64,000 nt of DNA from Lentzea albida (lineage in GTDB: Bacteria > Actinomycetota > Actinomycetes > Mycobacteriales > Pseudonocardiaceae), in NCBI RefSeq assembly GCF_900111005.1, contig NZ_FOFV01000016.1, positions 186,001-250,000 on the forward strand. Reading direction: 5' to 3'. Shown here in pieces: positions 13,015-32,181 of this stretch. A model generated the notes under the pieces. That model was not told where the DNA came from, made no database searches, and saw only the letters and a list, made by a program, of their open reading frames with translations. Each line of letters starts with the position of its first letter. The stretch's first letter is position 1. Both the position numbers and the translations under genes were made by a program.

Positions 13015-14084
13015 CCGACCACGAGCTCCCGCGTCGTCGCGTCCGGAGCGGCGAAGCGCATCAGCGCGTCGGCCTCCTGCTCGACCACCTTCAGGTCCTT
13101 TTTGGACAACGGCTTGAACAGCGTCAGCGTCAGGGTCGCGGTCTTCTTCTGCTCCTTGAGCTTCCAGATCCCGTGCACGAACCCGTCGACCAGGAGCGTG
13201 GCCGCGATGCCCGCGCCGACGCAGACCTTCTTGCGGATGTCGTCGTCCATCACGCGGGTGCGGTCGAAGTGCGACACCATCAGGTTGTCGTACTCGGGCA
13301 GGAAGCGGACCGGCGCCGGCGTGTCCCCTTCCGGCCGAGGTGCGTCGCGCAGGTCGTAGAGCTCCTGGCCGGTGTCGGACCGCAGCACCTCCAGCTCGGG
13401 ACCCATGTCCTTGAACACCTTGGCCATGAACGTCAGCCCGGTGAACGCTTGGAGGTCCTTGACGGTGGCCGGCCCGTACGCGGCGAGGTAGCGGCGCACC
13501 AGGTGCTTCGGGTCCGGGTCCTTCGTGAGCTCGCGGTCGAGGAACGGCTCCGCGAGCGTCGACGGCACCGACCCGCCCTTGCCCCACGGCGGCACGTGCA
13601 CCAGCGGCACCAGGTACTGCACGGAGTACGCGAGCGCCAGCGGATCGCGGCCGGGGAACCGCTCGCTCATCGACTCGCGCAGCTGCACCTGCGTCAGGGC
13701 CTTGCCGCGCAACAGCTTCTTGCCGTGTTCGGCGATCTCGGTGAGGTCCAGGCCCTCGGTCTCGCGGCCGAAGAAGCCCTTCTGCGCGCGGTTGAGGACG
13801 GGCTGGAGCAACGGCCGCAGCCACAGCAGGTCCGTCGTGGTCACGAGGTGCATGGTGTAGCGCATGAGCGACGACCGGACGATCTGGCGGTCCAGGATGA
13901 GCTTCGAGAGCTCGTCGCGGTCGAAGTGCTCCAGGCGTGCCCACAAACCGATGTAGGGCGGGAAGGGCAGCTGCGCCTGCAGCCCGACGAGCTGCTCGGT
14001 GGCTTCGAGCACGCCGAGGTCGTGGCGCTGCAGCAGGAGTTGGCGCGCGAGGGTGGCTCGGTTGATCGCGCGGCGGTCCAGCAC
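13011..14084 (-). CDS. AlkZ-like HTH_42 DNA glycosylase B (self-resistance)
   Basis: This 357-residue paralogue of the next gene has the same architecture. The catalytic motif is Gln36-Ala-Gln38 in LVGLQAQLPFPPYIGLW. MRYTMHLVTTTDLLWLRP, AYGPATVKDLQAFTGL, FLPEYDNLMVSHFDRTRV and VDGFVHGIWKLKE match the HTH_42 blocks. The GTG at 14084 follows an AAAGG site. The two proteins are clearly diverged, so this is not a recent duplication. From memory, trioxacarcin and LL-D49194 clusters also carry more than one such glycosylase, which supports a DNA-alkylating aromatic polyketide here. Confidence 0.88.
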   Translation of the reverse strand: MLDRRAINRATLARQLLLQRHDLGVLEATEQLVGLQAQLPFPPYIGLWARLEHFDRDELSKLILDRQIVRSSLMRYTMHLVTTTDLLWLRPLLQPVLNRAQKGFFGRETEGLDLTEIAEHGKKLLRGKALTQVQLRESMSERFPGRDPLALAYSVQYLVPLVHVPPWGKGGSVPSTLAEPFLDRELTKDPDPKHLVRRYLAAYGPATVKDLQAFTGLTFMAKVFKDMGPELEVLRSDTGQELYDLRDAPRPEGDTPAPVRFLPEYDNLMVSHFDRTRVMDDDIRKKVCVGAGIAATLLVDGFVHGIWKLKEQKKTATLTLTLFKPLSKKDLKVVEQEADALMRFAAPDATTRELVVG

Positions 14085-15076: not shown

Positions 15077-16099
15077 TCAGGCCGCCCAGGACGGCTTCGC
15101 GTCGATCTCCAGCACGGCGCAGCCCCAGCTGTACCCGGCGCCCACGCCGAACAGCACGACGCGCTGCCCCGGACGGGCCTGACCGGTGTCGACCAGGTGC
15201 CCGAGCCCGGCGAACTGGTCGCCCGCGCCGAGGTGCCCGACCGTGCGGCTCCACTCCCACGTCGTGCGCGAGGTGTCGATGTCGTACGGGCGCAGGTAGT
15301 TCACGTCGAGGCGGCGCCGGCCGAAGTGCGGCAGCACCACCCAGTCCGCGTCACCTATCTTCATGTCCGCGTCCGCCAGCGCCTCCTCGACGGCGGCGGC
15401 CTGGCCCGCGTTGGCGCGGTTGATGCCGAACGAGAGCCCGTACTGCCTGGCGAACGAGTTCTTGGCGGCCTCGAAGTCCACCGGCATGCGGTGCGAGAAC
15501 GGCGCGAGCCCCATCGGTTCGTCGCCGCGGTGCAGCGGCTCGAGATCGGAGTCCGCGTTGATGGCCAGGGAGAGCAGTCGCGCGTACCCGCCTCGCCGCG
15601 ACAGGACGACCGCGCTGGCGCCGTCCGCGTAGGGCGTGCCGGGGTCGGTGCGCCACCGGTCGATGCCGGGCAGGCAGAACCGGTCCGCGGTGGTCAGCAA
15701 CGCGTCACGACCGGGGCTGAGGTACCGCACGGCGAGGTCCAGCGCGGCCATGCCGCCGTTCGACATCTGCCGGATCTCGAGCGCCAGGCAGTTGTTGCGC
15801 ACGGTCTCGCGCTGGATGTAGCTGCCGACCGGCCACAGGTCCTGGCCCTGGTGGTAGGTGGTGGCGTGCAGGATCAGCTCGACGTCGTCCCCGGTGCTGC
15901 CGGCCCGCGCCAGTGCCTGCTGGGCCGCCTTGACGCCCATCTCGGCCGCCGACTCGTCGGGGGAGTAGGCGACGCTGGTGACGTCCGTGCGGGCGACCAG
16001 CTTCGGCTCGCACTCGCCGGAGTCGATCGCGTCCTGCACCCTCAGCGTCGCGGGGAGGCGGATCCCGTTGCCCCGCAGGTAGATGCCTTCGACGCGCAC
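15077..16099 (-). CDS. KSIII-like acyltransferase (CerJ type) with Ser nucleophile
   Basis: This 340-residue thiolase-fold protein belongs to the KAS III-like acyltransferases that move acyl groups from CoA or ACP onto sugars or aglycones (CerJ, ChlB3-type). The position of the nucleophile reads EIRQMSNGGMAALDLA, with Ser113 where CerJ and FabH have Cys. The His is in VLPHFGRRRLDV (His258). The third catalytic position is Asp294 in GHLGAGDQFAGLGHL, where condensing KSIII has Asn and CerJ has Asp. The Asp fits acyl transfer rather than decarboxylating condensation. A Ser nucleophile is also known in the starter-specifying DpsC. The GTG start directly follows the flavodoxin stop. It may attach an acyl decoration or help select the starter. 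Confidence 0.8.
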   Translation of the reverse strand: MRVEGIYLRGNGIRLPATLRVQDAIDSGECEPKLVARTDVTSVAYSPDESAAEMGVKAAQQALARAGSTGDDVELILHATTYHQGQDLWPVGSYIQRETVRNNCLALEIRQMSNGGMAALDLAVRYLSPGRDALLTTADRFCLPGIDRWRTDPGTPYADGASAVVLSRRGGYARLLSLAINADSDLEPLHRGDEPMGLAPFSHRMPVDFEAAKNSFARQYGLSFGINRANAGQAAAVEEALADADMKIGDADWVVLPHFGRRRLDVNYLRPYDIDTSRTTWEWSRTVGHLGAGDQFAGLGHLVDTGQARPGQRVVLFGVGAGYSWGCAVLEIDAKPSWAA

Positions 16100-16687
16100 T
16101 CAGACCTCCTTCAGCGCACGGGCGACCCGCACGACCCGGTCGGCCTGCACGCGGGCGGACTGCAGCGCGACCTCGCCCACCGGCTTGGAATCCGAACCCA
16201 GGACGTGAGATGTGCCGTACGGGTTCTCGTTCAGCCCCGGCGGCACGATGATCCCGCCGAAGTGGCAGACCATGTTGTGGATGGAGACGATCGTGGTCTC
16301 CATGCCGCCGTGCGTGCTGCCGCCCGACGTGAACGCGCTGTACACCTTGTTCGCGAGGCGCCCCTGGAACCACGCGGGACCCAGCGTGTCGATGAACTGC
16401 TTGAGCTGCGCGGACATGTTGCCGAACCTTGTGGGCGTGCCGAACAGGACCGCGTCGGCCCACAGCACGTCCTCGACCTGGGCGACCGGCACGTCCTCGG
16501 TCTGCCGGAGGTGCTCGGCCCACGCCGGACGCGAGTCCACGGCGGCCTGGGGCGCGAGTTCGGCCGCCCTGACCAGCCTGACCTCTGCTCCCGCCTTCTC
16601 CGCGGTCTCGGCGATCTCGGTGGCGATGCGGTGGATCGTCCCGGTGGACGAGTAGTAGACGACGGAGACGTTGACGCTGCGTTCCAT
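16100..16687 (-). CDS. WrbA-like flavodoxin / NAD(P)H:quinone reductase
   Basis: This 195-residue flavodoxin-fold protein has VVYYSSTGTIHRIATEIAETAE at residues 8-29 (FMN phosphate loop), FGTPTRFGNMSAQLKQFIDTLGPAW and KVYSAFTSGGSTHGGMETT, all WrbA hallmarks. It probably reduces quinones or flavin partners, either for polyketide quinone tailoring or against redox stress. The ATG at 16687 begins MERSVNVSVVYYS. It is the first gene of the minus-strand unit flavodoxin, KSIII-like protein, SDR, and is divergent from the response regulator with 110 bases between them. Confidence 0.88.
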   Translation of the reverse strand: MERSVNVSVVYYSSTGTIHRIATEIAETAEKAGAEVRLVRAAELAPQAAVDSRPAWAEHLRQTEDVPVAQVEDVLWADAVLFGTPTRFGNMSAQLKQFIDTLGPAWFQGRLANKVYSAFTSGGSTHGGMETTIVSIHNMVCHFGGIIVPPGLNENPYGTSHVLGSDSKPVGEVALQSARVQADRVVRVARALKEV

Positions 16688-16797: not shown

Positions 16798-17403
16798 ATG
16801 ATCAGGGTTCTGCTGGCCGAGGACATGCACATGGTGCGCGGTGCCCTCATCGCGCTGCTCAACCTCGAACCGGACATCGAAGTCGTGGCCGAGGTGAGCT
16901 CGGGGGACAAGATCCTTCCCATGGCGCGGCAACACAAACCGGACGTGGCGGTGATCGACATCGACCTGCCAGTCCTCGACGGCCTGAGCGCGGCCGCGAA
17001 GATCCGGGAGACGATGCCGTCGGTCCGCACGCTCATGCTCACGTCGCTGGGCCGCCCCGGCACGCTGCGCAAGGCGCTGGCGGCCCGCGTGGACGGGTTC
17101 CTGCTCAAGGACGCCCCGCCCGGCCAGCTCGCGGGCGCGATCCGCGACGTGGCGGCGGGCAAGCGCGTGGTCGACTCCCAGCTGGCGCTCGCCGCCTGGG
17201 ACCGCGGGGAGTGCCCGCTGACGGACCGCGAGCTCGAGGTGCTGCGCCTGGCCGCGGCCGGGTCGGACGCGCCGGAGATCGCCGTGGCGCTGTCGCTGTC
17301 GACCGGGACCGTGCGCAACTACATGACGACCATCATCACCAAGCTGAACGGCCGCAACCGGGTGGACGCGATCCGGATCGCGGAAGAAGCCGGCTGGATC
17401 TGA
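16798..17403 (+). CDS. NarL/DesR-type response regulator
   Basis: This 201-residue response regulator has a receiver domain (residues 1-118) with phospho-acceptor Asp54 in AVIDIDLPVLDG, the acidic pocket LAEDMHM and Lys in FLLKDAPP. A LuxR-type HTH (residues 138-200) contains LTDRELEVLRLAAAGSDAPEIAVALSLSTGTVRNYMTTIITKLNGRNR. It is encoded convergently with the double histidine kinase at 17456, its probable partner. The DesR branch usually senses membrane or antibiotic stress through such HisKA_3 kinases. It may control the exporter or the tailoring genes. Confidence 0.93.
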   Translation: MIRVLLAEDMHMVRGALIALLNLEPDIEVVAEVSSGDKILPMARQHKPDVAVIDIDLPVLDGLSAAAKIRETMPSVRTLMLTSLGRPGTLRKALAARVDGFLLKDAPPGQLAGAIRDVAAGKRVVDSQLALAAWDRGECPLTDRELEVLRLAAAGSDAPEIAVALSLSTGTVRNYMTTIITKLNGRNRVDAIRIAEEAGWI

Positions 17404-17455: not shown

Positions 17456-19714
17456 TCAGCTGCCCAGCGGGATCTCGGCGTGCAGGCGGAACGTGCGGTC
17501 CGACGTCGGACCGGCGTCCAGGCTCCCGCCCAACGCCCCCACGCGCGTCGTCAGGTTCCCGATGCCGCTGCCGTCACGCGAGTTCCGGTCCATCGTCGGG
17601 ATGCCGTCGTTGATGATGTCCATCGTCACCAGCCGAGGTGAGCTCGACAGCACGATCTCGCAGCGCTCGGCCTTGCTGTGCCGCAGCAGGTTCGTCACGC
17701 CCTCGCGCAGCACCGTCGCGAGCGTCACCCGCACGTCGACCGGCAGCCCGTCGCACGAGTCGATGCGCACGGTCACGTCGATGTCGGCCGCCGACAGCAG
17801 CGCCTGCGCCGACTGGGTCTCCTCGTCCAGCGACAGCTCGCGGTAGCTCAGCGCCACGGACCGCACGTCCGCGAGCGCCTGCCGGGAGATGTCCAGCACC
17901 TCGCTGAGCTCCTGACGGGCGCGGCCGGGGTCGATCGTGAGCAGGCGGTGGGTGAGCTCGCTCTTCAACGTGATGGCGGACAGGCTGTAGCCGAGCAGGT
18001 CGTGCAGGTCGCGGGCGAACCGCAGCCTCTCCTTCGTCACGGCGGCCGTCGCTAGCTCCTCGCGCGCCTCGTGCAGCTCGCTCACCATGGACCGCAGCCG
18101 GGCCAGCGCGTACAGCACCAGGCCGTGGTTCATCGCGGCCATGACTCCCCACGCGACGTACACGGCGTCCTGCCCGAGCACGCTGAAGACGACGCCCTGG
18201 CCGGCCACGACGACGAGGAACCCCACCCAGCCCGCGGTACGGGGCAGCAGGAGCGCGGCCGACCCGGCGATGAAGCCGGGCAGACCGATGAACGGGCTGC
18301 CGTACACGAACTGGGGCACGTACACGCAGACCGCGAGCGCGCCGAGCACCGCGGCCGTCCGCGCGGGGGTCAGGTGGACCTGCGGACGGCTCACGAGGCC
18401 CAGCACCAGGGCGATCATGCCGGCGATGCTGACCAGGGCGACCGCGATCCCGAACGGTCCGAGCAGCTCGTAGTCGTGGAACGACAGCGTCGCCGCCATG
18501 AGGCCGTACCCGACCACCACGGACGTGACGAGCACGTGCGCGAACCGCGTCGGGATCGGCAGGCCCGCCGTGCCGCGCTCGCCCGCCGGTTCCTCCGGCG
18601 CGGGGGTGACCGGCACCTCGGCGTGCAGCCGGTAGGTGCCGTCCGGGGAGGACTGGGCGGACAGGGACCCGCCGATTCCCTTGGTGCGGGTGGCGAGGTT
18701 CGTGAGGCCGCTGCCCCTGCCGGTCGTGGTCTCGCCGGGAGCGCCGTCGTTGACGATGTCGATCGACACCCGGTGCGCGTCGCCGGAGATCCTGATCGAG
18801 CAGCGGGTCGCGTCGCTGTGCCGCAGCAGGTTCGTCACACCCTCGCGCAGCACCGTCGCGAGTACCGTCCGCGAGCGCGGCGACAGCTCACCGCAGTCGA
18901 ACTCGATCGTCGTCGCGACCCCCGCCGCGGCCAGGACCGACCGCGACGACTCCACCTCGTCGGTCAGCGACAGCTCGCGGTAGCTCGACGCCACGGCGCG
19001 GACGTCCTTCAACGCCTCGCGGGCGATGGTGAGGATCTCGGTCAGCTCGCGCAGCGCGCGTTCGGTGTGCTGCCCCACCAGCTTGCGGGCCAGCTCCACC
19101 TTCAGCGTGATCGCGGACAGGCTGAAGCCGAGCAGGTCGTGCAGGTCGCGGGCGAACCGCAGCCGCTCCTGCGACACCGCGAGCTCGGCCAGTTCGGAGC
19201 GGGCCGTCTCCAGCTGCCTGACCAGCGTCGGCAGCCGGGACAGGCCGTAGACGACCAGGCCGGAGACCACCGGTGTCAGCACGTAGTAGGCGAGCTCGGC
19301 GAGGTTCGCGACGTACAGGTACTTGATCCCGCCGTTGGTGAGCGCCACCGCGGCGAACACGAACCACCGCACGCGTCCCGGCAGGACGAGCAACGCGCTG
19401 CCGGCGAAGAACCCCGGCATGCCGGACCACGCGTTGGGGAAGTAGAGGACGGGGACGAAGACCAGCAACGCCATCGCGCCCAGTGCCAGGTACGCCCTGA
19501 CCGACCGCAGATCGGCCCCCGGCCGCGAGAACACCCGCAGCTGCAGGTACCCGATCGAGAACAGGCAGGCAAGCGATCCGACGACCCGCACCGGCGTGAC
19601 GCCGGCCTGCAGGACGTAGAAGAAGGCGTTGCCGAGGTAGTTGGCGAACACGACGCTGATCACGACGTACGCCAAGCGACGGGACACGGATGAGCGTTCC
19701 TGTCGCAGTGTCAC
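17456..19714 (-). CDS. Double-module HisKA_3 histidine kinase
   Basis: This 752-residue protein is two complete DesK/NarX-like sensor kinases joined head to tail. Each module has about five or six membrane segments, then a HisKA_3 box and an HATPase_c domain. The phosphorylatable His is in RLRFARDLHDLLGFSLSAITLK (His192) and RLRFARDLHDLLGYSLSAITLK (His571). The ATPase N-boxes are EGVTNLLRHS in both halves and the G-boxes are GSGLTNLATR and GSGIGNLTTR. The half junction is near residue 375 (a Pro/Glu-rich linker). GTG 19714 is chosen for its GGGAGC site; the frame is open further upstream. Neither module has lost key residues. It ends 52 bases from the convergent response regulator. Confidence 0.88.
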   Translation of the reverse strand: MTLRQERSSVSRRLAYVVISVVFANYLGNAFFYVLQAGVTPVRVVGSLACLFSIGYLQLRVFSRPGADLRSVRAYLALGAMALLVFVPVLYFPNAWSGMPGFFAGSALLVLPGRVRWFVFAAVALTNGGIKYLYVANLAELAYYVLTPVVSGLVVYGLSRLPTLVRQLETARSELAELAVSQERLRFARDLHDLLGFSLSAITLKVELARKLVGQHTERALRELTEILTIAREALKDVRAVASSYRELSLTDEVESSRSVLAAAGVATTIEFDCGELSPRSRTVLATVLREGVTNLLRHSDATRCSIRISGDAHRVSIDIVNDGAPGETTTGRGSGLTNLATRTKGIGGSLSAQSSPDGTYRLHAEVPVTPAPEEPAGERGTAGLPIPTRFAHVLVTSVVVGYGLMAATLSFHDYELLGPFGIAVALVSIAGMIALVLGLVSRPQVHLTPARTAAVLGALAVCVYVPQFVYGSPFIGLPGFIAGSAALLLPRTAGWVGFLVVVAGQGVVFSVLGQDAVYVAWGVMAAMNHGLVLYALARLRSMVSELHEAREELATAAVTKERLRFARDLHDLLGYSLSAITLKSELTHRLLTIDPGRARQELSEVLDISRQALADVRSVALSYRELSLDEETQSAQALLSAADIDVTVRIDSCDGLPVDVRVTLATVLREGVTNLLRHSKAERCEIVLSSSPRLVTMDIINDGIPTMDRNSRDGSGIGNLTTRVGALGGSLDAGPTSDRTFRLHAEIPLGS

Positions 19715-19816
19715 AGCAGCAGCTCCCACGCGAGGGTCTGGACGCGGCCATGATACGGGCGCTTCCTGGGAAATCTCGCGTTTCGCGGACCTCGAACGGA
19801 GCAACATGGCGGCGTA
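19715..19816. other. Gap between RiPP operon and kinase gene
   Basis: This 102-base gap on the minus strand lies between the SagB-like stop and the kinase GTG. I see no strong hairpin, so read-through from the RiPP operon into the kinase is possible. Confidence 0.4.
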
Positions 19817-20488
19817 TCAACACCTCGGGACGACGAGTTGCGCACCGGCGAGATAAGCGACGACGTCCGCGACCAGCGTCCTGCTGACGTGCAACGCGTC
19901 CGAGATGTGCGCGATGGTGGTCTCGCCGTCGAGCAGGGACTTCGCGATCTCCGTCGCGGGCGCGCTGTGCAGGATCACCTGGTACTGGCGTCCTCCGCAG
20001 GTCAGCGCCTGGTCGCCGTTGAGCCGCTCGATCTCGGTGCCCGGCCGCATGGACACGGTCTCGTGGTCGCCGATGTGCGGCAGCGTGAACACGGCGTCCC
20101 CGGTCACGGCCACGACGGACAGGATGGGGCCGGCGCCGTCGTCCATGCCGAGCGACGGCACGACACATCCACCCAGTTGGTCGAGCGTGTTCTTCAGCTT
20201 GCGCCAGATCAGGCACGGTCCGCCGCCGGTCTTCCACCGCACGAAGTTCTCGTGCAGCGCGGAGATGTTCTCCAGGGCGACGGGCCCGAGACTCATGCGG
20301 TGCAACGCCTCCCGCACGACCGGGCTGGTGTCCGCGAGCTGGATCGCGCCCCACCTGCCGTGCACGGTGAGGTGCTCGGAGCTCTCGTCGACGAAGGCGT
20401 CCTCCAGCAACGACCACAGCGGGCGTCCCGTCGGGACGTGCGATTGCGTGGGCACCACGGCGCTGCTCCGCTCCGGCAGGTGGGTCAC
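19817..20488 (-). CDS. SagB-type leader/N-terminal domain protein without nitroreductase
   Basis: This 223-residue protein resembles the N-terminal region of SagB-type (thiopeptide and linear azole) dehydrogenases: an HLTVHGRWGAIQLADTSPVVREALHRMSLGP strand-helix block, a central helical segment, SLGMDDGAGPILSVVAVTGDA, and a second winged-helix-like block ending LDGETTIAHISDALHVSRTLVADVVAYLAG. The FMN-binding nitroreductase domain that normally follows, roughly 200-250 residues, is absent, and the stop is clean. The GTG at 20488 overlaps the YcaO stop (GTGA), so it is translated with the cyclodehydratase. If it cannot oxidise, the peptide would keep azolines, or another oxidase would act. It might instead bind precursor. 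Family assignment is from pattern memory. Confidence 0.55.
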   Translation of the reverse strand: MTHLPERSSAVVPTQSHVPTGRPLWSLLEDAFVDESSEHLTVHGRWGAIQLADTSPVVREALHRMSLGPVALENISALHENFVRWKTGGGPCLIWRKLKNTLDQLGGCVVPSLGMDDGAGPILSVVAVTGDAVFTLPHIGDHETVSMRPGTEIERLNGDQALTCGGRQYQVILHSAPATEIAKSLLDGETTIAHISDALHVSRTLVADVVAYLAGAQLVVPRC

Positions 20489-22746
20489 ATGAACAACGGG
20501 ATCGGGTTGAGCTCGTCGTACCGGCGTGGCCGGTTCAGTCGCCCCAGTTGTACCGGCACGTCGTAGAGGCGCCCTTGAGCGAACCTCGACCAGAAGTGGC
20601 GCAGCCCCGGCACGACGACCCTGACCACCGGGAGACCGAGGTCGGGCCTGGTCTGGTCCAGCACGAGCACCTCCATCCCGCGTGCCTCCAGGGCGTCCCG
20701 GATGCCGCGGATGTCGTCGGCCAGGTCGTCGCGGTGCTGGTGGTCGTGGTGCGACGCGTCGTGCGGTGCGACGGCCGGATCGGGTACCAGCCAGGGCTGC
20801 TCGGCGACCCGGGTCTGCTCGAACCAGGTTCTCGTGTCGGTGTCGAACGAGTCCAGGCCGGCGGTGCCGCAGACCATCGGCATGCACTGGTTCAGCTCGG
20901 TGAGCGCCCTGCGTGCGGCGATCCGCGGGTCCAGGTGCGCGCCGCAGCCGAGCATGACGTCCTCGCGGCCGCCGCCGGTGCGCCGTGACAGGGCCACCAT
21001 CACGGGCACGCCGAGGTCCGCGGTCACGTCGAGCAGCCACACCTCGCGGCCGAGACCGGCGTGCACCTCACGGCACTCGTCGATCCACCGGTCGCGGAAC
21101 GAGTCCAGGTCGACACCCGGCACCGGCGTGCGGTTGTACCACCAGATGGCGACGGCGTCCCGTTCGACGAGTTCCAGCAGCGCCTGCAGCACCGCGTCCT
21201 CGAGGCTGCTGCCGGCGGCGCACCCGTTGGAGTTCGCCGTGACGCTCGGCGGGCAGGGGGCGCCGAAGTACGACATGCCGGTGGGCAGGTACCTGTGCCG
21301 CTGCTCGGTGAGCGACCAGTACGGGGTCCAGCTCATCACCTCGTCCTCGTCGAACGGGGTGGTGACGTGCTGGAACTTCGAGTGGGCCGCGTTCCAGGCG
21401 TCCCTGCCGGCGAACTGGCGCGGGTCGTAGAGCTGCACGGCGCCGGGGTGGACCGCCCGGTCGCCCAGCGACCGGTAGCTGCCGCTCACCTGGGCCTCGT
21501 CGCCGCAGAACGTGCCGCTGCGCCGTTCCACCGCCTCGCACAGGGCGCCGACCTCGGCGTCGAGCGGCGTCACGCCCTTGCCGCCGGTTTCCGTCCGCAG
21601 TGACGAACGCAGCCCCTCGATCCCTTCGCCGTCGGCCGCGATGTTCGAGCCGGACCAGAAGGAGTTGAAGAACGCGGGTCCGGTGGTGTTGCGGCGGATG
21701 TCCCGCACGATCCCGGTGAGCGGGCCGACGAGGTGCCGGTAGGTGTCGAGCACCTCCTGGGGCGACGCGGACCGGTGGCCGCCGCCGGAACAGGAGCGCT
21801 TCCTGCGGCTTTCCAGCCGGACGGGCTCGAACGCCCTGCGTGCGACCACCTCCGGGTCCCCGCAGCCGGGGCACTGCGGGCGGACCCGCACCTCGTGCTG
21901 CGCGACCTTCATGGTGAGGCTGTCGTAGCTCCAGATGGACCGCTGCGCGTCCTGGCGCAGGCCCGCGAGCCACTTGGCCGCCTCGACGGAGGCGATCTCG
22001 AGCGCGGTCGCCCGCAGCGACGGCAGCCCGATGGTCGCGCGGGGTGCGGGACCGCGTTCCCCGCACCGCGCCCGCACGTGGGCCTCCGCCGACCGGTTGG
22101 CCGACAGCCTCGTGGCGAGGCACCGCCAGCACGGGCCGTCGCCGGGCGTGAAGAAGGGACCCACGCACACCTGCGCGCCGACGGGCTTGAGCAGCAGCCA
22201 GGGGGTACCGGCGGCCCGGTGCGCGGCGTCGAGCTCGCGGAGTTCGGGAGCCAGGTAGTCCGCACACGCCACGACCGTCAGGTCACCACTCCCCGAGGTG
22301 ACCGCCAGTCCGTTGCGGTGCAGCGCGTCCACGACCGCGTCGCGGTCGATGTCGCCGATCGTGACGACGGAGACGAGCGACGTCGTTGTCGCCGCCACCG
22401 CGTCCGCGGGATCGAGGCCGGCCGCGTCCCAGTACGCGAGTGAGGCCTCGATGTCGGCCGAAACGTCCTCCGCGCCCCTGCAGCTGATCAGGCCCGCCGC
22501 GGTGAGCCGGGCGAGCATGCGTTCGACCTGGTCCGAGGTCAGGTCGGCGGATGCGTCGCGCAGCAGCGCCGTGAGGTCGCGGGTGCCGTCGAGCAGCAGT
22601 GCGAGCGTCTCGACGTGCGGGCCCTGCAACGCCGTGACCCCGGATTCCCCGAAGAGGTACACGGCTTCGCCCCGCACGATCTGCGGCCGGAGGTGCCGTT
22701 TGAACCCGATGCGTCGCGCATCCGGCTCGGCCAGGTCCTCTCTCAT
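20485..22746 (-). CDS. Fused E1-like/YcaO azoline cyclodehydratase (TOMM)
   Basis: This 753-residue protein catalyses ATP-dependent cyclodehydration of Cys, Ser or Thr in a ribosomal precursor peptide. Residues 1-90 (RHLRPQIVRGEAVYLFGESGVTALQGPHVETLALLLDGTRDL) form the leader-binding start of TOMM cyclodehydratases. Residues 90-330 are E1/ThiF-like with zinc cysteines GPCWRC and CPGC. The YcaO domain follows: RTETGGKGVTPLDAEVGALCEAVERRSG (ATP and Mg binding), then NGCAAGSSLEDAVLQALLELVERDA, and a C-terminal NPIPLFM end resembling the PxPxP tail. The ATG overlaps the precursor stop (ATGA) and the stop overlaps the SagB-like GTG, so three genes are coupled. Its place inside a type II PKS cluster is unusual. 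Confidence 0.9.
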   Translation of the reverse strand: MREDLAEPDARRIGFKRHLRPQIVRGEAVYLFGESGVTALQGPHVETLALLLDGTRDLTALLRDASADLTSDQVERMLARLTAAGLISCRGAEDVSADIEASLAYWDAAGLDPADAVAATTTSLVSVVTIGDIDRDAVVDALHRNGLAVTSGSGDLTVVACADYLAPELRELDAAHRAAGTPWLLLKPVGAQVCVGPFFTPGDGPCWRCLATRLSANRSAEAHVRARCGERGPAPRATIGLPSLRATALEIASVEAAKWLAGLRQDAQRSIWSYDSLTMKVAQHEVRVRPQCPGCGDPEVVARRAFEPVRLESRRKRSCSGGGHRSASPQEVLDTYRHLVGPLTGIVRDIRRNTTGPAFFNSFWSGSNIAADGEGIEGLRSSLRTETGGKGVTPLDAEVGALCEAVERRSGTFCGDEAQVSGSYRSLGDRAVHPGAVQLYDPRQFAGRDAWNAAHSKFQHVTTPFDEDEVMSWTPYWSLTEQRHRYLPTGMSYFGAPCPPSVTANSNGCAAGSSLEDAVLQALLELVERDAVAIWWYNRTPVPGVDLDSFRDRWIDECREVHAGLGREVWLLDVTADLGVPVMVALSRRTGGGREDVMLGCGAHLDPRIAARRALTELNQCMPMVCGTAGLDSFDTDTRTWFEQTRVAEQPWLVPDPAVAPHDASHHDHQHRDDLADDIRGIRDALEARGMEVLVLDQTRPDLGLPVVRVVVPGLRHFWSRFAQGRLYDVPVQLGRLNRPRRYDELNPIPLFM

Positions 22747-22922
22747 GCCGCGAGGACTTCTTCGTACCTCACGAACGACCGGGTGCCGGGAGAGGTGGCG
22801 CACCAGTTCATGGGCAGGAAGTCGGCCGAGGACTCACGGTCGAACTCGTAGATCTTCACGTCGGCGGAGTCGTCGACGGCGGTGATGGAAACCAGCTGCT
22901 CCACGGTGGCGGTGGGGTACAT
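22743..22922 (-). CDS. Candidate TOMM/RiPP precursor peptide (59 aa)
   Basis: This is a 59-residue peptide read on the minus strand from ATG 22922, with GGAG 7 bases upstream and a stop overlapping the YcaO start (ATGA). The leader-like part (MYPTATVEQLVSITAVDDSA and on to about residue 37) is acidic, with Asp17, Asp18, Asp21, Glu26, Asp28, Glu30 and Asp34. The C-terminal part holds the only Cys and several cyclisable residues: NWCATSPGTRSF gives Cys41, Thr43, Ser44, Thr47 and Ser49, then VRYEEVLAA closes it. Up to five azoline positions exist; Ser44 precedes Pro. Position, coupling and composition fit a precursor, but I know no family with this core and the leader/core border is not defined. 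Confidence 0.72.
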   Translation of the reverse strand: MYPTATVEQLVSITAVDDSADVKIYEFDRESSADFLPMNWCATSPGTRSFVRYEEVLAA

Positions 22923-23131
22923 GTTGAACTCCGATGTTTGCGACCGAGTTGACGTGGGTAATCATGAGGACTTCGGCTAATGGCCTGGTAGTTACCGCTT
23001 AACGCGCCTCGGTATGAAGTTTTCATACCCCCGCCGGGGAGAACTCACCCGAGATCGATGGCCGGTGCACTAACGGCGTCCCCACCTGCGGACCACACTG
23101 GTTCTCAAGTTCGAGCAGAAGGGGGACGGCG
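22923..23131. promoter_or_regulatory. Divergent control region of RiPP operon and SARP gene
   Basis: This 209-base region separates the divergent precursor and SARP genes and is AT-richer than its surroundings. It must hold both promoters. The clearest element is the dyad at 23011-23029. No credible ORF lies inside. Confidence 0.6.
23011..23029. promoter_or_regulatory. Operator-like palindrome GGTATGAA-N3-TTCATACC
   Basis: Perfect 8-base arms with a 3-base spacer, placed about 90 bases from the RiPP precursor start and 103 bases from the SARP start. The length and symmetry fit a dimeric repressor or activator site that could coordinate both directions. The binding protein is unknown. Confidence 0.55.
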
Positions 23132-23941
23132 ATGCACATCAAGGTCCTGGGGCCGGTCGAGGCCAAGGTGAACGGCCGATCGGTGACGCCGTCGGCGGCC
23201 AAGCCGCGGCAGATCCTGGCGCTGCTCGCGCTGCACTCGGGTTCGGTCGTGTCCGTGCCGACCCTCATCGAGGAGCTGTGGGACGACCGCCCGCCGCGCA
23301 GCGCCCGCACCACGTTGCAGACCTACATCCTGCAGCTGCGCCGGCTGATCGGGGACGCGCTGGCCGCGTCGGACGAGAGCGGCGCCAAGGAGGTGCTGGT
23401 CACGCGCTACGGCGGCTACCTGCTGGACGTGCCGGAAGAGGCCGTCGACGTGCACGAGTTCGAACGGCTGGCCCGGGCGGGCCAGAACGCCTACGACGCG
23501 GAGGACTTCGCGGTCGCGTCGAGGCTGCTGCGGTCGGCGCTGGACATCTGGCGCGGTCCGGCCGTCGTCGACGTCCGGCCGGGCATGCCGCTCAGCGTCG
23601 AGGTCGTGCGCCTGGAGGAGTCCCGGCTCGGCGTGATGGAGATGCGCATCGAGGCGGACATGCGGCTGGGCAAGCACAAGGCGTTGCTCAGCGAGCTCTC
23701 CGTGCTCACCGTGCAGAACCCGATGAACGAGAACCTGTGCGCGCAGTACATGATCTCGCTCTTCCGCGCGGGACGGCAGTGGCAGGCCCTGGACGCGTTC
23801 CGGGCGTTGCGCCGCACCCTCGTCGACGAGCTGGGGGTCGAGCCGTCCGCGCGCCTGCAGCAGTTGCAGCACGCCATCGTGACGTCCGATCCGCGGCTCG
23901 ACCGCGCGGAAGCCCGGCAGTTGCAAGGACTTCTCGCCTAG
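23132..23941 (+). CDS. SARP-family transcriptional activator
   Basis: This 269-residue Streptomyces antibiotic regulatory protein is the probable pathway-specific activator. An OmpR-like winged helix spans residues 1-95 (MHIKVLGPVEAKVNGRSVTPSAAKPRQILALLALHSGSVVSVPTLIEELWDD, then TLQTYILQLRRLIG). A bacterial transcriptional activation domain spans about 100-250, ending DELGVEPSARLQQLQHAIV. The length matches ActII-ORF4/DnrI-type small SARPs without an ATPase. A GGGGGACGGCG stretch precedes the ATG. It is divergent from the RiPP operon and followed by a strong terminator. Confidence 0.95.
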   Translation: MHIKVLGPVEAKVNGRSVTPSAAKPRQILALLALHSGSVVSVPTLIEELWDDRPPRSARTTLQTYILQLRRLIGDALAASDESGAKEVLVTRYGGYLLDVPEEAVDVHEFERLARAGQNAYDAEDFAVASRLLRSALDIWRGPAVVDVRPGMPLSVEVVRLEESRLGVMEMRIEADMRLGKHKALLSELSVLTVQNPMNENLCAQYMISLFRAGRQWQALDAFRALRRTLVDELGVEPSARLQQLQHAIVTSDPRLDRAEARQLQGLLA

Positions 23942-24109: not shown

Positions 24110-24361
24110 GTGAGCGCACTGACCATCGAGGGTCTCAAGGAGATCCTCAACGAGGCCGCCGGCGATGACGACTCGTTCAAGGCCGGCCAGGACATTCTCG
24201 ACACTCCGTTCCTCGAGCTGGGCTTCGACTCGCTGGCCCTGCTGGAGACGGTGGCGCTGATCAAGCGCAAGTACGGCGTCGCCGTCGGCGACGACGAGCT
24301 CGCGCACCTCGAGACCCCGCGCCAGCTGCTGACCAAGGTCAACGGGGACATCGCGGCCTGA
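24110..24361 (+). CDS. Type II PKS acyl carrier protein
   Basis: This 83-residue carrier protein tethers the growing poly-beta-keto chain on phosphopantetheine. Ser41 in FLELGFDSLALLETVALIK is the attachment site, and the following helix (DDELAHLETPRQLLTKVNG) is typical. The GTG start follows GAGGAAAGG. It is the first gene of the PKS operon, preceding the cyclase, small protein, DRE-TIM-like protein, KS-alpha, KS-beta and acyltransferase. Having the ACP first and the KS pair later differs from the common KS-CLF-ACP order. Confidence 0.97.
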   Translation: MSALTIEGLKEILNEAAGDDDSFKAGQDILDTPFLELGFDSLALLETVALIKRKYGVAVGDDELAHLETPRQLLTKVNGDIAA

Positions 24362-24395: not shown

Positions 24396-25331
24396 ATGAC
24401 GCACACCACCACGCACACGGTCATGATCGGTGCCCCCGCCAAGGTGGTGTACGACCTGATCGCGGACGTCACGCGCTGGCCGTACATCTTCGGGCCCACG
24501 GTGCACGCCGAGGTGTTCGAGACCGACGGGCCGACCGAGCGGCTGCGGCTGCACGCCTTCGCCAACGGTGACGTGCGCACGTGGACGTCCCGCCGTGAGC
24601 TGGACTCGGCGAACCTGCACGTCAGGTTCGAGCAGGAGCGTTCGGCGGCGCCGGTGAAGTCGATGGGAGGGGAGTGGCGGATCACGCCGATCGCCGACTC
24701 GGCGACGCGCGTCGACCTCCTGCACCACTTCACCGTCGCCCAGCCGGAGGCCGTCGACCTCGTGCTGAGGGCGGTGAACAACAACAGCGACGCCGAGCTC
24801 GCGGCGCTCAAGCGTGCCGCCGAGTACGGCGACGAGTACGACAAGCTGGTGCTGTCGTTCTCCGACAGCATCACGATCCACGCGACCCGCAAGGACGTGT
24901 ACGAGTTCCTGTACCGGTCGGACCTGTGGCCGCAGCGGCTGCCGCACGTCGCCCGGCTCGACCTCACCGAGGCCGTGACGGGCGTGCAGTCCATGGAGAT
25001 GGACACGCGCAGCCCGGACGGCTCGATCCACACGACGCACTCCGTTCGGGTGTGCACGCCGCACGACACGATCGTCTACAAGCAGACCAGGACGCCGCCG
25101 ATCATGGCGGCGCACATCGGCAGGTGGACGTTGCGGGACATCGGTGACGGCATCGAGGCGGGCATCGAGGCCACCTCGCACCACACCGTCGTCATCCGTC
25201 CCGAGGTCGTGCAGGAGGTGCTCGGCGCGGACGGCACGCTCGAGCGCGCCCGTGAGCTGATCCGCCACGCGTTGGGCACGAACAGCCTCACGACCCTGCG
25301 GCACGCCAAGGAGTTCGCCGAGAACGGCTGA
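24396..25331 (+). CDS. Didomain aromatase/cyclase
   Basis: This 311-residue protein has two START/SRPBCC (polyketide cyclase) domains, residues about 5-145 and 155-305. Domain 1 begins THTVMIGAPAKVVYDLIADVTRWPYIFGPTVHAEV and domain 2 begins FSDSITIHATRKDVYEFLYRSDLWPQRLPHVARL. Both keep the Trp-Pro segment and Arg residues lining the pocket. Didomain enzymes of the ActVII/GrhQ kind direct C7-C12 or C9-C14 first-ring closure and aromatisation, normally in pathways that reduce C9. It starts 34 bases after the ACP stop. Confidence 0.93.
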   Translation: MTHTTTHTVMIGAPAKVVYDLIADVTRWPYIFGPTVHAEVFETDGPTERLRLHAFANGDVRTWTSRRELDSANLHVRFEQERSAAPVKSMGGEWRITPIADSATRVDLLHHFTVAQPEAVDLVLRAVNNNSDAELAALKRAAEYGDEYDKLVLSFSDSITIHATRKDVYEFLYRSDLWPQRLPHVARLDLTEAVTGVQSMEMDTRSPDGSIHTTHSVRVCTPHDTIVYKQTRTPPIMAAHIGRWTLRDIGDGIEAGIEATSHHTVVIRPEVVQEVLGADGTLERARELIRHALGTNSLTTLRHAKEFAENG

Positions 25332-25349
25332 TCTGTGAGGTGGTGGGCG

Positions 25350-25535
25350 ATGGGGCTGGTCGGTGTGGACCTGTTGACCGCGGCGGCTCGTGCCGCGAGC
25401 CGCAACGGCCTGCACGTGGTGTCGATGTACCTGGAGAAGGCCGCGGTCGAGCACCAGCGCAAGGGCTGCCCGTCCGACGTGGCGCCCTGCGCCCAGGAGA
25501 TCGAGGCCTCCCGCGTGCTGCTGTCGGGGTTCTGA
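25350..25535 (+). CDS. Small conserved-looking protein in PKS operon
   Basis: This 61-residue protein of unknown function starts at ATG 25350 after a GAGGTGG site, 18 bases beyond the cyclase stop. It reads MGLVGVDLLTAAARAASRNGLHVV and ends CAQEIEASRVLLSGF: an amphipathic helix, a basic centre (VEHQRKGCPSDVAPC) and a closing helix. Two Cys, at about residues 42 and 49, could bind metal or form a disulfide. Its place in the middle of the minimal-PKS operon and good codon use argue that it is real. I do not recognise it. Confidence 0.6.
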   Translation: MGLVGVDLLTAAARAASRNGLHVVSMYLEKAAVEHQRKGCPSDVAPCAQEIEASRVLLSGF

Positions 25536-25561
25536 CGGGACGAAGCGCGAGGGGGTTCTGG

Positions 25562-26242
25562 GTGGAGCTCTACGACATCTCGCTGCGCCGCGCCGGCTCG
25601 TCCGTCACCGACAGGCTGGTCGCGGCGCGGCACCTCGACGCACTCGGCGTCGCGTTCGTCGACGGAGGCAGGCCGGACCGCCGGTTCTACCACCGGGCGG
25701 CCGTCGAACTCCGGTTGCGGACCGCCACGCTGACCGCCTCCGGCCGGCCGGAGGACCTCACCGCGCTGCTCGCCGCGGAGACGACCGCGGTGGCGGTGGT
25801 TGTTCAGGGGCACGGCTTCTCGGTCCTCCGCGAAGCCGTGCGCCAACTCGTGCGCGCCGGACGGCGAGTGGTCGTCGAGGCGCGGGACTTCTTCGACGGC
25901 TGGCTGATCGACCCCGAACACGCTTTGGAGGTCGTGCGGACAGCCGCGGAGGCCGGGGCGGACACCGTGGTGCTGCACGACACCGCGGGCGCGTTGTGGC
26001 CGGACCAGATCGGCGAGATCGTCGAGTCGGTCGCGGAAACCGGTGTGCCCCTTGGTTTCGGTTGTCCCGACGACGGCGGATCGGCGGCGAAGCAGTTGTT
26101 CGCGGCCGATGCGGGGGCCGGGCTCGTACAGGGGTCCTACGCCGTCGTTCGAGGTGGCCTCGATCGGGCCGTCTCACCATTGCCCTGTCCGAGATTGGAG
26201 CAGACCGTGTCCGCACAGAAGGCGATTGGAGGTGTCCGATGA
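25562..26242 (+). CDS. DRE-TIM metallolyase-like pseudoenzyme (CimA-like)
   Basis: This 226-residue protein follows the citramalate/homocitrate synthase TIM barrel: VELYDISLRRAG aligns with LYDTTLRDG, ALGVAFVDGGRPD with LGVxFIEGGWP, VEARDFFDGWLIDPEHALEVVRTAAEAGADTVVLHDTAGALWP with the FDAEHFFDGY-LCDTNGG region, and VPLGFGCPDDGGSAA with VPLGIHCHNDAGLA. The metal ligands are lost: the Asp of RD is Arg10, and HxH is Gly167-Cys-Pro169. The C-terminal regulatory domains are absent (full enzymes have over 500 residues). It is therefore unlikely to condense acetyl-CoA; a binding or structural role is inferred. GAGGGGG precedes the GTG and the stop overlaps the KS-alpha start (ATGA). Confidence 0.7.
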   Translation: MELYDISLRRAGSSVTDRLVAARHLDALGVAFVDGGRPDRRFYHRAAVELRLRTATLTASGRPEDLTALLAAETTAVAVVVQGHGFSVLREAVRQLVRAGRRVVVEARDFFDGWLIDPEHALEVVRTAAEAGADTVVLHDTAGALWPDQIGEIVESVAETGVPLGFGCPDDGGSAAKQLFAADAGAGLVQGSYAVVRGGLDRAVSPLPCPRLEQTVSAQKAIGGVR

Positions 26243-27507
26243 GTCGTCGCGCCGTCATCACCGGGGTGGGCGTGGTCGCACCTGGTGGCATCGGAACGAA
26301 GGCGTATTGGAAACTGCTGTCCGAAGGGCGTACGGCGACTCGCAACATCACGCACTTCGACGCGTCTCCGTACCGCTCCCGCATGGCGGGAGAAGCAGAT
26401 TTCGACCCAGTGCGCGAAGGCCTGACACCGCAGGAGATCCGCCGGCTCGACCGGGCCGCGCAGTTCGCGGTCGTCGCGGGTCGCGAGGCGATGTCCGACT
26501 CGGGCATCGAGTTCGACCAGCTCGACCCGGGCCGCATCGGCGTCTCGCTCGGCACCGCCGTCGGCTGCACGACCTCGCTGGAGCGCGAGTTCATCGTCGG
26601 CTCCGACCGGGGCCGGTACTGGGAGGTCGACCAGTCCTACGCCGTTCCGCACCTCTACGACTACTTCACGCCGTCCTCGATGGCGACGGAGCTGGCGTGG
26701 ACGGTCGGCGCGGAAGGTCCGGTCTCCGTGGTCTCCACGGGTTGCACCTCCGGCCTCGACTCGGTCGGCTACGCCGCCGAACTGATCATGGAGGGCTCCG
26801 CGGACGTCGTCGTCACCGGCGGCACCGAGGCCCCGCTCTCCCCGATCACCGTGGTGTGCTTCGACGTGATCCGCGCGTCGAGCACCCGCAACGACGACCC
26901 CACCACGGCGTGCCGGCCGTTCGACAAGACCCGCGACGGCCTGGTGCTGGGCGAGGGTTGCGCGATCATCGTGCTGGAGGAGCTCGAGCACGCCCGTGCC
27001 CGCGGCGCCCACATCTACGGTGAGATCGGCGGCTTCGCCTCGCGGTGCAACGCCTACCACATGACGGGCCTGCACCCCGAGGGCATCGAGATGTCCGACG
27101 CCATCAACATCGCGCTGAAGCAGGCGCGGGCGGACGCCACGGACGTCGGCTACATCAACGCGCACGGGTCGGGCACGAAGCAGAACGACCTGCACGAGAC
27201 GGCCGCGTTCAAGCGTTCGTTGGGTGCGCACGCCTACAAGACCCCGGTCTCCGGCTTCAAGTCGATGATCGGGCACTCGCTGGGCGCGATCGGGTCCCTG
27301 GAGATCGTCGGCTCGCTGCTGGCGTTCGAGCAGGACCTCATCCCGCCGACGGCGAACCTGCACGAGCCGGACCCCGAGTGCGACCTCGACTACACGCCGC
27401 TGGTCGCGCGCGAGAAGAAGGTCAACACGGTGCTGACCGTGGGCAGTGGTTTCGGTGGATTCCAGAGCGCCATGGTGCTCAAGAAGGTGGAAGGGGCAGG
27501 CCGGTGA
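26239..27507 (+). CDS. Type II PKS ketosynthase alpha
   Basis: This 422-residue condensing subunit forms a heterodimer with the next gene product and elongates the chain from malonyl-ACP. The nucleophile is Cys169 in VVSTGCTSGLDSVGYA. Catalytic His residues lie in YINAHGSGTKQND and MIGHSLGAIGS. The length and start (MSRRAVITGVGVVAPGGIGTKAYW) are standard. It is coupled by overlap to both the preceding DRE-TIM-like gene (ATGA) and the following CLF gene (GTGA). Confidence 0.98.
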   Translation: MSRRAVITGVGVVAPGGIGTKAYWKLLSEGRTATRNITHFDASPYRSRMAGEADFDPVREGLTPQEIRRLDRAAQFAVVAGREAMSDSGIEFDQLDPGRIGVSLGTAVGCTTSLEREFIVGSDRGRYWEVDQSYAVPHLYDYFTPSSMATELAWTVGAEGPVSVVSTGCTSGLDSVGYAAELIMEGSADVVVTGGTEAPLSPITVVCFDVIRASSTRNDDPTTACRPFDKTRDGLVLGEGCAIIVLEELEHARARGAHIYGEIGGFASRCNAYHMTGLHPEGIEMSDAINIALKQARADATDVGYINAHGSGTKQNDLHETAAFKRSLGAHAYKTPVSGFKSMIGHSLGAIGSLEIVGSLLAFEQDLIPPTANLHEPDPECDLDYTPLVAREKKVNTVLTVGSGFGGFQSAMVLKKVEGAGR

Positions 27508-28718
27508 CTCGGGCGGTGGTGACGGGAATCGGCATCGCGTCGCCGAACGGGCTGGGGCCGACCGCGTACTGGCGGGCGACCCTGCACGGGGAGGCGGCGA
27601 TCAAGCCGATCACCCGGTTCGACAGCGCGAACTACTGGGCGAAGATCGCCGGCGAGGTGCCCGGCTTCGAGGCAGGGCGGCACCTGCAGGGCCGCCTGCT
27701 GCCGCAGACGGACCACATGACGCGGCTGACACTGGTCGGCACGGACTGGGCGTTGCGTGGTGCGGGCGTGCAGCCCAACGACATCCCGGACACCGACATC
27801 GCGGTCATCACCGCGGCGACGGCGGGCGGGTACGAGTTCGGCCAGCGCGAACTGCAGAAGCTGTGGCACCAGGGCCCCGAGTACGTCTCGGCGTACCAGT
27901 CGTTCGCGTGGTTCTACGCGGTCAACACGGGCCAGATCTCCATCCGGCACGGCACGCGCGGTCCCGGCGCGGTGGTCGTGTCGGAGCAGGCCGGTGGCAT
28001 CGACTCCATCGGGCACGCGCGGCGCCAGCTGCGCAAGGGCGTCCAGCTGGCCCTCACGGGCGGCATGGACTCGTCCCTGTGCCCGTGGGCGTGGGTGGCG
28101 CACCAGGCGTCGGGTTGCCTGTCCCGCAACAACAACCCGAAGCGCGCCTACCTGCCGTTCGACCGCGACGCCTCCGGGTACGTCGCGGGCGAGGGCGGCG
28201 CGATCATGGTGTTGGAGACGCCGGAGTCGGCGGCCGAGCGTCCCGGCACGCGCATCTACGGCGAGATCGTCGGGTACGCCTCGACGTTCGACTCGCGGAT
28301 GCCGTCGCGGGAGCCGGGTCTCAAACGGGCCGCGGAGCTCGCGCTGCGCGACGCCGGCATGGACGCCTCCGAGATCGACGTGGTGTTCGCCGACGCGGCG
28401 GGCATCCCCGAGCTCGACAAGGCCGAGGCCGAGGCGATCAAGGGCATCTTCGGGCCGTACGGCGTGCCGGTGACGGCGCCGAAGACCATGACCGGCCGGC
28501 TCTTCGCCGGTGGCGGGTCCCTGGACGTGGCGTCGGCGATCCTCTCCATCTACTGGAGCGCGATCCCGCCGACCGTCAACGTCGAGAACCCGGTGCCGGA
28601 GTACGAGATCGACCTCGTGATGAACGAGGCGCGGCACGGCAAGGTCAAGGCCGCGCTGGTGCTCGGCCGCGGCAAGGGCGGCTTCAACTCCGCCATGGTG
28701 GTGCGCGAGTACAGGTGA
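27504..28718 (+). CDS. Type II PKS chain-length factor (KS beta)
   Basis: This 404-residue KS homologue has the active-site Cys replaced by Gln162 in VVSEQAGGIDSIG, the mark of chain-length factors. With KS-alpha it sets the number of condensations and helps priming by decarboxylating malonyl-ACP. GTG 27504 overlaps the KS-alpha stop. The residues of the tunnel gate cannot be turned into a chain length without alignment. A long hairpin follows the stop. Confidence 0.98.
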   Translation: MTRAVVTGIGIASPNGLGPTAYWRATLHGEAAIKPITRFDSANYWAKIAGEVPGFEAGRHLQGRLLPQTDHMTRLTLVGTDWALRGAGVQPNDIPDTDIAVITAATAGGYEFGQRELQKLWHQGPEYVSAYQSFAWFYAVNTGQISIRHGTRGPGAVVVSEQAGGIDSIGHARRQLRKGVQLALTGGMDSSLCPWAWVAHQASGCLSRNNNPKRAYLPFDRDASGYVAGEGGAIMVLETPESAAERPGTRIYGEIVGYASTFDSRMPSREPGLKRAAELALRDAGMDASEIDVVFADAAGIPELDKAEAEAIKGIFGPYGVPVTAPKTMTGRLFAGGGSLDVASAILSIYWSAIPPTVNVENPVPEYEIDLVMNEARHGKVKAALVLGRGKGGFNSAMVVREYR

Positions 28719-28784: not shown

Positions 28785-29702
28785 GTGGACGTAGCACTGA
28801 TGTTTCCCGGGCAGGGGTCGCAGTACCCGCGGATGGCGGCCTCCCTGTACGGCACGGACGCGGTGTTCACCTCGGTGGTCGACGAGGTGTTCGAACTGTT
28901 CGGCGAAGTGGGCTCGATCGCCTGCGACGACTGGCTTTCCGGCGCGGACATCGACCACGTGTCGCGCGCGCAGCCGTTGCTGTTCGCGATCGACTACGCG
29001 CTGGGGCGCACGGTCCTGTCGTGGGGTGTGAAGCCCGTCGCGCTGATCGGGCACTCCGCCGGCGAGGTCGTCGCGGCGACCCTGGCGGGCGTGTTCTCGC
29101 TGGAGGAAGCGGTGTCGCTGGTGCGGGACCGGGTGGTGTCGGCCGTGTCGATCCCGTCCGGCGGCATGCTCGCGGTGGCCGCCTCCGAGGCCGAGATGCT
29201 GCCGTACCTGCAGGGCGATGTGGCGATCGCGGCCGTGAACTCCGCCCGCCAGACCATGCTGGCCGGCTCGGACGCGCCGCTGGCCGAGGTGCGCGCCCGG
29301 CTGGAGGCGGACGAGTTCATCGTCGTGACCGTGCCCGCCACCACGCCGTTCCACAGCCCGGCGATGCAGCCCGCCGTGGACGAGGCGCTGGCGGCGTGGA
29401 ACGTGTCGCCGCGAGCCCCCCGGATGCCGGTGTACTCCGGGTACACGGGCACGCTGATGACCGAGCACGACGCGACGTCGGCGCGGTTCTGGACGCGTCA
29501 GCTGACCGACGCCGTCTACTTCGGACCTGCGCTCAACGACCTGCTGGCGATGTACGACGTGCTGCTGGTCGAGGCCGGTCCCGGGCAGACGCTGACGTCG
29601 TTCGCGCGGCGCACCAAGGCGGTGCGGCACGGCGCTTCGCAGGTGCTGCCGCTGCTGGACGCCAACGACTCCGTCGAGACCGCACGCGCTCGTCTGGTGT
29701 GA
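28785..29702 (+). CDS. Malonyl-CoA:ACP acyltransferase
   Basis: This 305-residue FabD-like acyltransferase loads acyl units onto the ACP. The nucleophile is Ser91 in LIGHSAGEVVAATLAG. The His is in VPATTPFHSPAMQPAV, and FPGQGSQYPRM begins the fold at residue 7. Many type II clusters borrow FabD from fatty acid synthesis; a dedicated copy can load an unusual starter or boost malonyl supply. The GTG 28785 follows GGAGGGG. A hairpin ends the operon at 29713. Confidence 0.93.
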   Translation: MDVALMFPGQGSQYPRMAASLYGTDAVFTSVVDEVFELFGEVGSIACDDWLSGADIDHVSRAQPLLFAIDYALGRTVLSWGVKPVALIGHSAGEVVAATLAGVFSLEEAVSLVRDRVVSAVSIPSGGMLAVAASEAEMLPYLQGDVAIAAVNSARQTMLAGSDAPLAEVRARLEADEFIVVTVPATTPFHSPAMQPAVDEALAAWNVSPRAPRMPVYSGYTGTLMTEHDATSARFWTRQLTDAVYFGPALNDLLAMYDVLLVEAGPGQTLTSFARRTKAVRHGASQVLPLLDANDSVETARARLV

Positions 29703-30776: not shown

Positions 30777-30800
30777 GGAGCCGAGCTTGGCGGGCGTTCC

Positions 30801-30817
30801 TTGAGCACGTCTCAAGA
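30801..30817. promoter_or_regulatory. Possible regulatory repeat TTGAG-N6-TCAAG
   Basis: TTGAG at 30801 and TCAAG at 30812 are 11 bases apart and also form the arms of a small dyad (CTTGAG-CACGT-CTCAAG). The element lies between the divergent cyclase and ABM genes and resembles the one at 8980-9011. It could be a SARP site or a dyad operator. Confidence 0.35.
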
Positions 30818-30872
30818 GGCGGTGTGCATGGTTTTCCCCAGTCGGACACCGTTTTCTCCGAGGAGCCACGTC

Positions 30873-32170: not shown

Positions 32171-32181
32171 ATTTGGTCTTC

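Follow-up and report, generated by a model that had tools for sequence, protein, structure and literature searches.

A putative azol(in)e peptide signalling operon with its own histidine kinase beside a type II polyketide synthase in Lentzea

Organization of the locus

We analysed a 64,000-nucleotide stretch of the Lentzea albida genome (contig NZ_FOFV01000016.1, positions 186,001 to 250,000; hereafter the window), in which a small operon for a ribosomally synthesised and post-translationally modified peptide (RiPP) lies within a type II polyketide synthase (PKS) locus. The first-pass annotation had described three genes, for a 59-residue precursor, a fused E1-like/YcaO cyclodehydratase and a SagB-type leader domain. 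All three lie on the minus strand, with positions and overlaps as it gave them (Table 1): the precursor and YcaO genes share ATGA, the YcaO gene and the third gene, P0003, share GTGA, and both overlaps are present in the sequence. Absent from its description of the locus were the genes for a membrane histidine kinase (HK) and a response regulator (RR).

Table 1. Genes and other features at the RiPP operon and the adjoining PKS locus (SARP, Streptomyces antibiotic regulatory protein; KS, ketosynthase)
Feature	Position	Strand	Remarks
Precursor peptide gene	22743-22922	-	59 aa
Fused leader-binding/ThiF-like and YcaO cyclodehydratase (LynD/TruD-like)	20485-22746	-	753 aa; domain matches, LynD/TruD alignment
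P0003, SagB-type N-terminal domain without flavin dehydrogenase domain	19817-20488	-	223 aa
Tandem membrane HK	17456-19675 (about)	-	sensor 1, kinase 1, sensor 2, kinase 2
LuxR/NarL-type RR	16798-17403	+	receiver and GerE domain; convergent with HK
Palindrome GGTATGAA-N3-TTCATACC, candidate operator	23011-23029		between precursor and SARP genes
SARP-family regulator gene	23132-23941	+	divergent from precursor, 209 bases between
Acyl carrier protein	24110-24361	+	domain match
Di-domain aromatase/cyclase	24396-25331	+	domain match
KS-alpha	26239-27507	+	start taken from MSRRAVITG motif
Chain length factor (CLF)	27516-28718	+
Acyltransferase	28785-29702	+	domain match
Tailoring genes: cyclase (-), ABM monooxygenase (+), CoA-transferase III (+), luciferase-like monooxygenase (+)	30000-33111
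KSIII-like protein and flavodoxin/FMN-reductase-like protein	15077-16687	-

The precursor consists of a leader with a conserved VKIYEFDRE region, a hypervariable core containing Cys, Ser and Thr, and a conserved C-terminal EVLAA. Because the leader (DDSDDMKIYxFDRE-like) is kept across 19 Lentzea loci, the reading frame is more than a chance open reading frame (ORF), and its designation as a precursor stands. The identification of the middle gene is likewise borne out: its product scores above the cut-offs of TIGR03882 (142 bits; cut-off 36.9), TIGR03604 (263 bits; cut-off 219) and Pfam YcaO (339 bits; cut-off 25.7), and aligns over nearly its whole length with the PDB sequences of LynD (residues 16-751) and TruD (residues 13-751), the fused enzymes that make cyanobactins. 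By its sequence, the enzyme is a cyclodehydratase of the thiazole/oxazole-modified microcin (TOMM) type. A TOMM locus is recognised by a short precursor with a conserved leader and a core containing Cys, Ser or Thr, and by a YcaO cyclodehydratase with a leader-binding partner, and both are found here. An optional component, the azole-forming flavin dehydrogenase, is lacking, as P0003 stops before the SagB domain.

P0003 has no match in Pfam or NCBIfam, and a profile search of PDB sequences with it found nothing. It aligns with the N-terminal part of relatives' SagB-type dehydrogenases and ends before the flavin domain TIGR03605; the label of a SagB-type leader domain is therefore correct, and no dehydrogenase is encoded in P0003. 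Its relatives in the wider sample described below are mostly 441-550 residues long, and all four of the long ones tested carry the SagB dehydrogenase domain. As the missing dehydrogenase we considered, and discarded, a nitroreductase-family protein at 10409-10999, which scores above the cut-off of a model for malonic semialdehyde reductase.

The next gene downstream of P0003, on the same strand, encodes the HK, a protein of about 739 residues whose start codon is uncertain (the ORF is open up to an ATG at 19807). It is built of two complete units; in each, about five hydrophobic segments precede a HisKA_3 and an ATPase domain, and the H, N and G boxes are present in both kinases.

The intergenic sequence between the SARP and precursor genes holds GGTATGAAaacTTCATACC, which has its single exact match in the 9.4-Mb genome at this place. 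With up to three mismatches, the true pattern has two matches in the genome (one of them exact) and a reversed control also has two within this limit. Both half-sites are intact in 18 of the 19 Lentzea loci, with one mismatch in the remaining locus (L004), and degenerate versions occur at similar distances in some other genera.

Co-variation of the core with the sensor domains

Of the segments compared by mean distance, the precursor core and the two sensor domains of the HK vary most. Mean pairwise distances among 17 Lentzea sequences are 0.70 for the core, 0.275 for sensor 1 and 0.43 for sensor 2; for the other segments they are 0.185 (kinase 1), 0.12 (kinase 2), 0.10 (SARP), 0.07 (RR), 0.035 (CLF) and 0.027 (KS-alpha). 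The core distances of 19 sequences correlate best with those of the sensors (0.764 for sensor 1 and 0.765 for sensor 2), followed by YcaO (0.63-0.65), kinase 1 (0.49), P0003 (0.46), kinase 2 (0.32), CLF, RR and SARP (0.28) and KS-alpha (0.14). By rank (Spearman), all 19 sequences give 0.465 and 0.45 for the sensors, with CLF next at 0.31. In 60-residue windows along the HK, the two sensors stand out with correlations of 0.55-0.71 (sensor 1) and 0.60-0.71 (sensor 2); most of kinase 1 gives 0.20-0.40, and kinase 2 gives 0.19-0.29. With eight control segments partialled out, the core correlates with the two sensors at 0.61 and 0.59 (p 2e-4 from 5000 permutations, which ignore the tree).

The same relationship is seen among strains that are otherwise closely similar. 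Strains about 99% identical in their SARP, RR and PKS proteins bear different core and sensor alleles; between L005 and L008 the backbone proteins (SARP, RR, KS-alpha and CLF) are 0.8% apart, whereas the cores differ by 90% and the sensors by 28% and 42%. Within the quartile of pairs closest in these four proteins, the 10 pairs whose cores are similar have distances of 0.11 in sensor 1 and 0.16 in sensor 2, versus 0.31 and 0.49 for the 33 pairs whose cores differ; the corresponding values are 0.06 versus 0.08 for kinase 2 and 0.105 versus 0.18 for kinase 1. Four loci of a second genus (g11) have two core types, with 72-78% identity within and 33-42% between types. Their best-matching kinase pieces are 85-91% identical within core types and about 70-75% between them, while SARP (95-99%) and RR (99-100%) are nearly constant throughout; the YcaO and SagB proteins also switch with the core type.

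Linkage and distribution

A scan with the cyclodehydratase gave 26 loci, in which PKS relatives were sought within 10-kb flanks. The YcaO gene is present in all 24 genomes of the genus, and a KS-alpha gene of at least 87% identity lies within 5 kb on the same contig in 23 of them, the exception being the source genome of L020 (G247). The co-occurrence of YcaO and KS-alpha proposed as a check in the first-pass annotation is thus upheld within the genus, as is its placing of the RiPP operon in a type II PKS locus; a block that mainly serves to control the PKS in this genus would be expected to show such tight linkage.

The Lentzea loci carry SARP, precursor, YcaO, SagB-like gene, HK and RR together. 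The same set occurs in L020, L022 and L024 without a window-type KS-alpha or CLF relative in the flanks. In L020 the PKS core is gone, and the SARP and luciferase-like genes are adjacent; the block's other neighbours are a flavin monooxygenase in L022, and an adenylating enzyme and an FMN dehydrogenase in L024. L027, next to an EryCIII-type glycosyltransferase and a DegT-type aminotransferase, has SARP, YcaO, HK and RR with no KS-alpha or CLF nearby; L028 has SARP and YcaO only, and KS-alpha and CLF are present in L025, L026 and L029. A second SARP/HK/RR set of the same families adjoins the block in the three PKS-less loci (L020:15974-18685, L022:15476-19030 and L024:16275-19142).

In one Lentzea genome (G238), a locus on a single contig (L214:8588-11042) has intact precursor, HK and RR genes, with the N-terminal part of YcaO out of frame; either this strain naturally lacks the signal, or the sequence is in error.

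In the wider sample, a YcaO profile found matches in 136 of the 390 family genomes and in 30 of 394 genomes sampled from the class. From these groups we picked 79 different loci by hand. Of the 77 with a called YcaO gene, HK and RR are both present in 54, one of them in seven and neither in 16. Block and PKS are not kept together here, with KS-alpha and CLF near YcaO in only two loci (L152 and L154) and a CLF-like protein in one more (L119). Among 40 further loci of g11, 19 have both HK and RR, three have one and 18 have neither. Small ORFs with an LVIDEFDxW-like leader precede YcaO in many, by no means all, loci.

A palindrome match with at most five mismatches in 16 positions lies upstream of YcaO in 25 of the 61 wider loci with HK or RR and in none of the 16 without (hand count; Fisher p 0.0009), the loci not being independent and some of the 25 matches not being clear palindromes or lying at another distance.

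Proposed function and alternatives

We propose that the operon probably produces an azol(in)e-modified, strain-specific peptide pheromone that is read by its own HK and gates the SARP and PKS. At the sequence level, this model is supported by gene order and conservation, by the co-variation of core and sensors, and by the palindrome. The YcaO fusion would bind the conserved leader and cyclise Cys, Ser or Thr residues of the core to one or more azolines. SagB partners in other genera would oxidise these to azoles; because the dehydrogenase domain is missing here, azolines are expected in L. albida. Release and export of the core would rely on functions that we did not find at the locus. The tandem HK would then sense the core with its two membrane domains and phosphorylate the neighbouring RR. 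Phosphorylated RR may bind the palindrome, raising expression of the signal operon, in a positive feedback, and of the SARP, which in turn would switch on the PKS. The N-terminal, leader-binding part of YcaO, which is variable and adjoins the core, has a low correlation with it (0.18-0.24), as would be expected of a part that recognises the conserved leader.

There are several observations that weigh against the model. In the stretch from 7892 to 39178, neither a transporter domain for export nor a leader peptidase was recognised in the called genes. The precursor was not recognised in many loci, and 34 of the 117 loci (77 plus 40) have neither HK nor RR. The 16 of these from the hand-picked sample include more distant TOMM enzymes and a paralogous group similar to the other YcaO encoded in the genome from which the window comes, a gene that likewise lacks a neighbouring HK or RR; 17 of the 18 from g11 share a layout of SARP, YcaO and SagB protein with no HK, RR or recognised precursor (L171-L184, L189, L191 and L192), and for the last, L200, the downstream stretch examined was too short. 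The candidate operator is weakly conserved in many genera. With regard to the co-variation, the permutations take no account of the tree, and YcaO itself belongs in part to the allele block that holds core and sensors. In a set of 11 sequences freed of near-duplicates, the correlations with the sensors are lower, at 0.40 and 0.42; these are still the highest, with CLF close behind at 0.38, the ThiF part of YcaO at 0.26, and the kinases, SARP and RR negative.

The annotation had suggested that the peptide might be a separate product, a carrier or part of the polyketide. None of these roles finds support, because the block travels with SARP, HK and RR even without the PKS, the core varies where the PKS hardly does, and the core tracks the sensors. 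An antimicrobial role, with the peptide a linear azol(in)e-containing antibiotic sensed by the HK for autoinduction or immunity, much as NisK senses nisin, and with the core diversity reflecting an arms race, would fit a TOMM-type enzyme next to a two-component system, and would equally predict hypervariable cores that co-vary with their sensors. We nevertheless judge it unlikely: the genes called around the operon include none that was recognised as serving transport or immunity, the palindrome points to the SARP beside the precursor, and the SARP goes with the block even next to unrelated genes. The occurrence of the block without the PKS and next to unrelated genes, together with a hypervariable core facing KS-alpha and CLF proteins that differ by only about 3% on average, speaks against the peptide as a carrier for, or a part of, the polyketide. 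Tight linkage in 23 of the 24 genomes favours this idea, which we nonetheless regard as very unlikely; a peptide-polyketide hybrid is rejected on distribution and variability.

It is also conceivable that core and sensors vary together without interacting, as parts of one recombining allele block. The co-variation of YcaO with the core and, more weakly, of kinase 1 and P0003 is what such linkage would produce, as is the swapping of YcaO and SagB proteins in g11. Simple linkage does not, however, predict that the correlation should drop in P0003 and kinase 1, on the way from the core to sensor 2, and climb again in sensor 2, or that it should be so low in the variable YcaO N-terminus next to the core; we therefore regard chance linkage as very unlikely. 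The annotation held that operon and PKS would be mere neighbours if close relatives carried each without the other and a YcaO deletion left the polyketide unchanged. Operons without the PKS do exist (L020, L022 and L024); since SARP, HK and RR accompany them, the block looks more like a regulatory unit, and a regulatory role fits better than mere proximity.

On a broader level, we lean towards the view that such operons represent a large and so far undescribed class of actinomycete signals: azol(in)e peptide pheromones with allele-specific kinases, gating many kinds of SARP-controlled clusters. Among the signals of antibiotic-producing actinomycetes, small lactones are the best known, and a ribosomal, YcaO-modified pheromone read by a dedicated kinase would add a new signal chemistry for these bacteria. 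As such a signal would be gene-encoded, it might be a key to silent clusters: a single strain could be chosen and activated with a synthetic version of its core. The potential reach is given by the cyclodehydratase relatives in the family and class, not all of which are kinase-coupled.

Relation to known systems

The closest parallel is ComQXPA, a quorum-sensing system of Bacillus in which a modified peptide, its modifying enzyme, a membrane HK and a LuxR-type RR are encoded in one locus. All four are found together here, as genes, and core and sensor are polymorphic with a conserved RR, subject to the weaker correlations in the set of 11 sequences. The agr system, with its autoinducing peptide (AIP), is similar in its allele-specific peptide and sensor and in the autoinduction logic that we propose from sequence. 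The differences are nonetheless substantial. In place of ComQ there is a YcaO cyclodehydratase (no ComQ isoprenyl transferase domain is among the matches for the operon genes), the kinase is tandem and of the HisKA_3 type, the output is a SARP, and the hosts are actinomycetes; no AgrB membrane peptidase is among the domain matches for genes 7892-39178, and no thiolactone is expected. With neither ComQ nor AgrB present, we assign the system to neither type.

The enzyme resembles LynD and TruD in its fusion of a leader-binding/ThiF-like part to YcaO, but sits with SARP, HK, RR and a SagB fragment. In the kinase-less YcaO group, a precursor upstream of YcaO in L092 contains several copies of a core-like cassette (AHDPVLAS type), which calls to mind the multi-core precursors of cyanobactins. 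Goadsporin, an actinomycete peptide with azoles, influences antibiotic production and development; it is not known to act through a dedicated, allele-matched sensor kinase.

Among the open-licence PMC papers that our searches turned up, no title or abstract opening describes an actinomycete pheromone modified by YcaO and paired with a histidine kinase, and no paper joining YcaO, histidine kinase and Amycolatopsis was found. The main text of a TOMM census (PMC4603692) contains no mention of histidine kinase, two-component, Lentzea or Amycolatopsis.

The polyketide synthase and flanking genes

The PKS beside the operon is a canonical type II system: KS-alpha bears the active-site Cys in VSTGCTSG, and CLF bears the usual Gln in HQASG. 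Within the PKS operon is a shortened citramalate-synthase-like gene (25340-26242, plus strand), whose counterpart in L212 and L213 is 544 residues long. Two tandem AlkZ-like DNA glycosylases (11959-14084, minus strand) adjoin the cluster; in the locus comparison, relatives occur near the block only in L014, L015, L017 and L019. Because AlkZ-type proteins shield producers of DNA-alkylating compounds, the polyketide product might be DNA-damaging.

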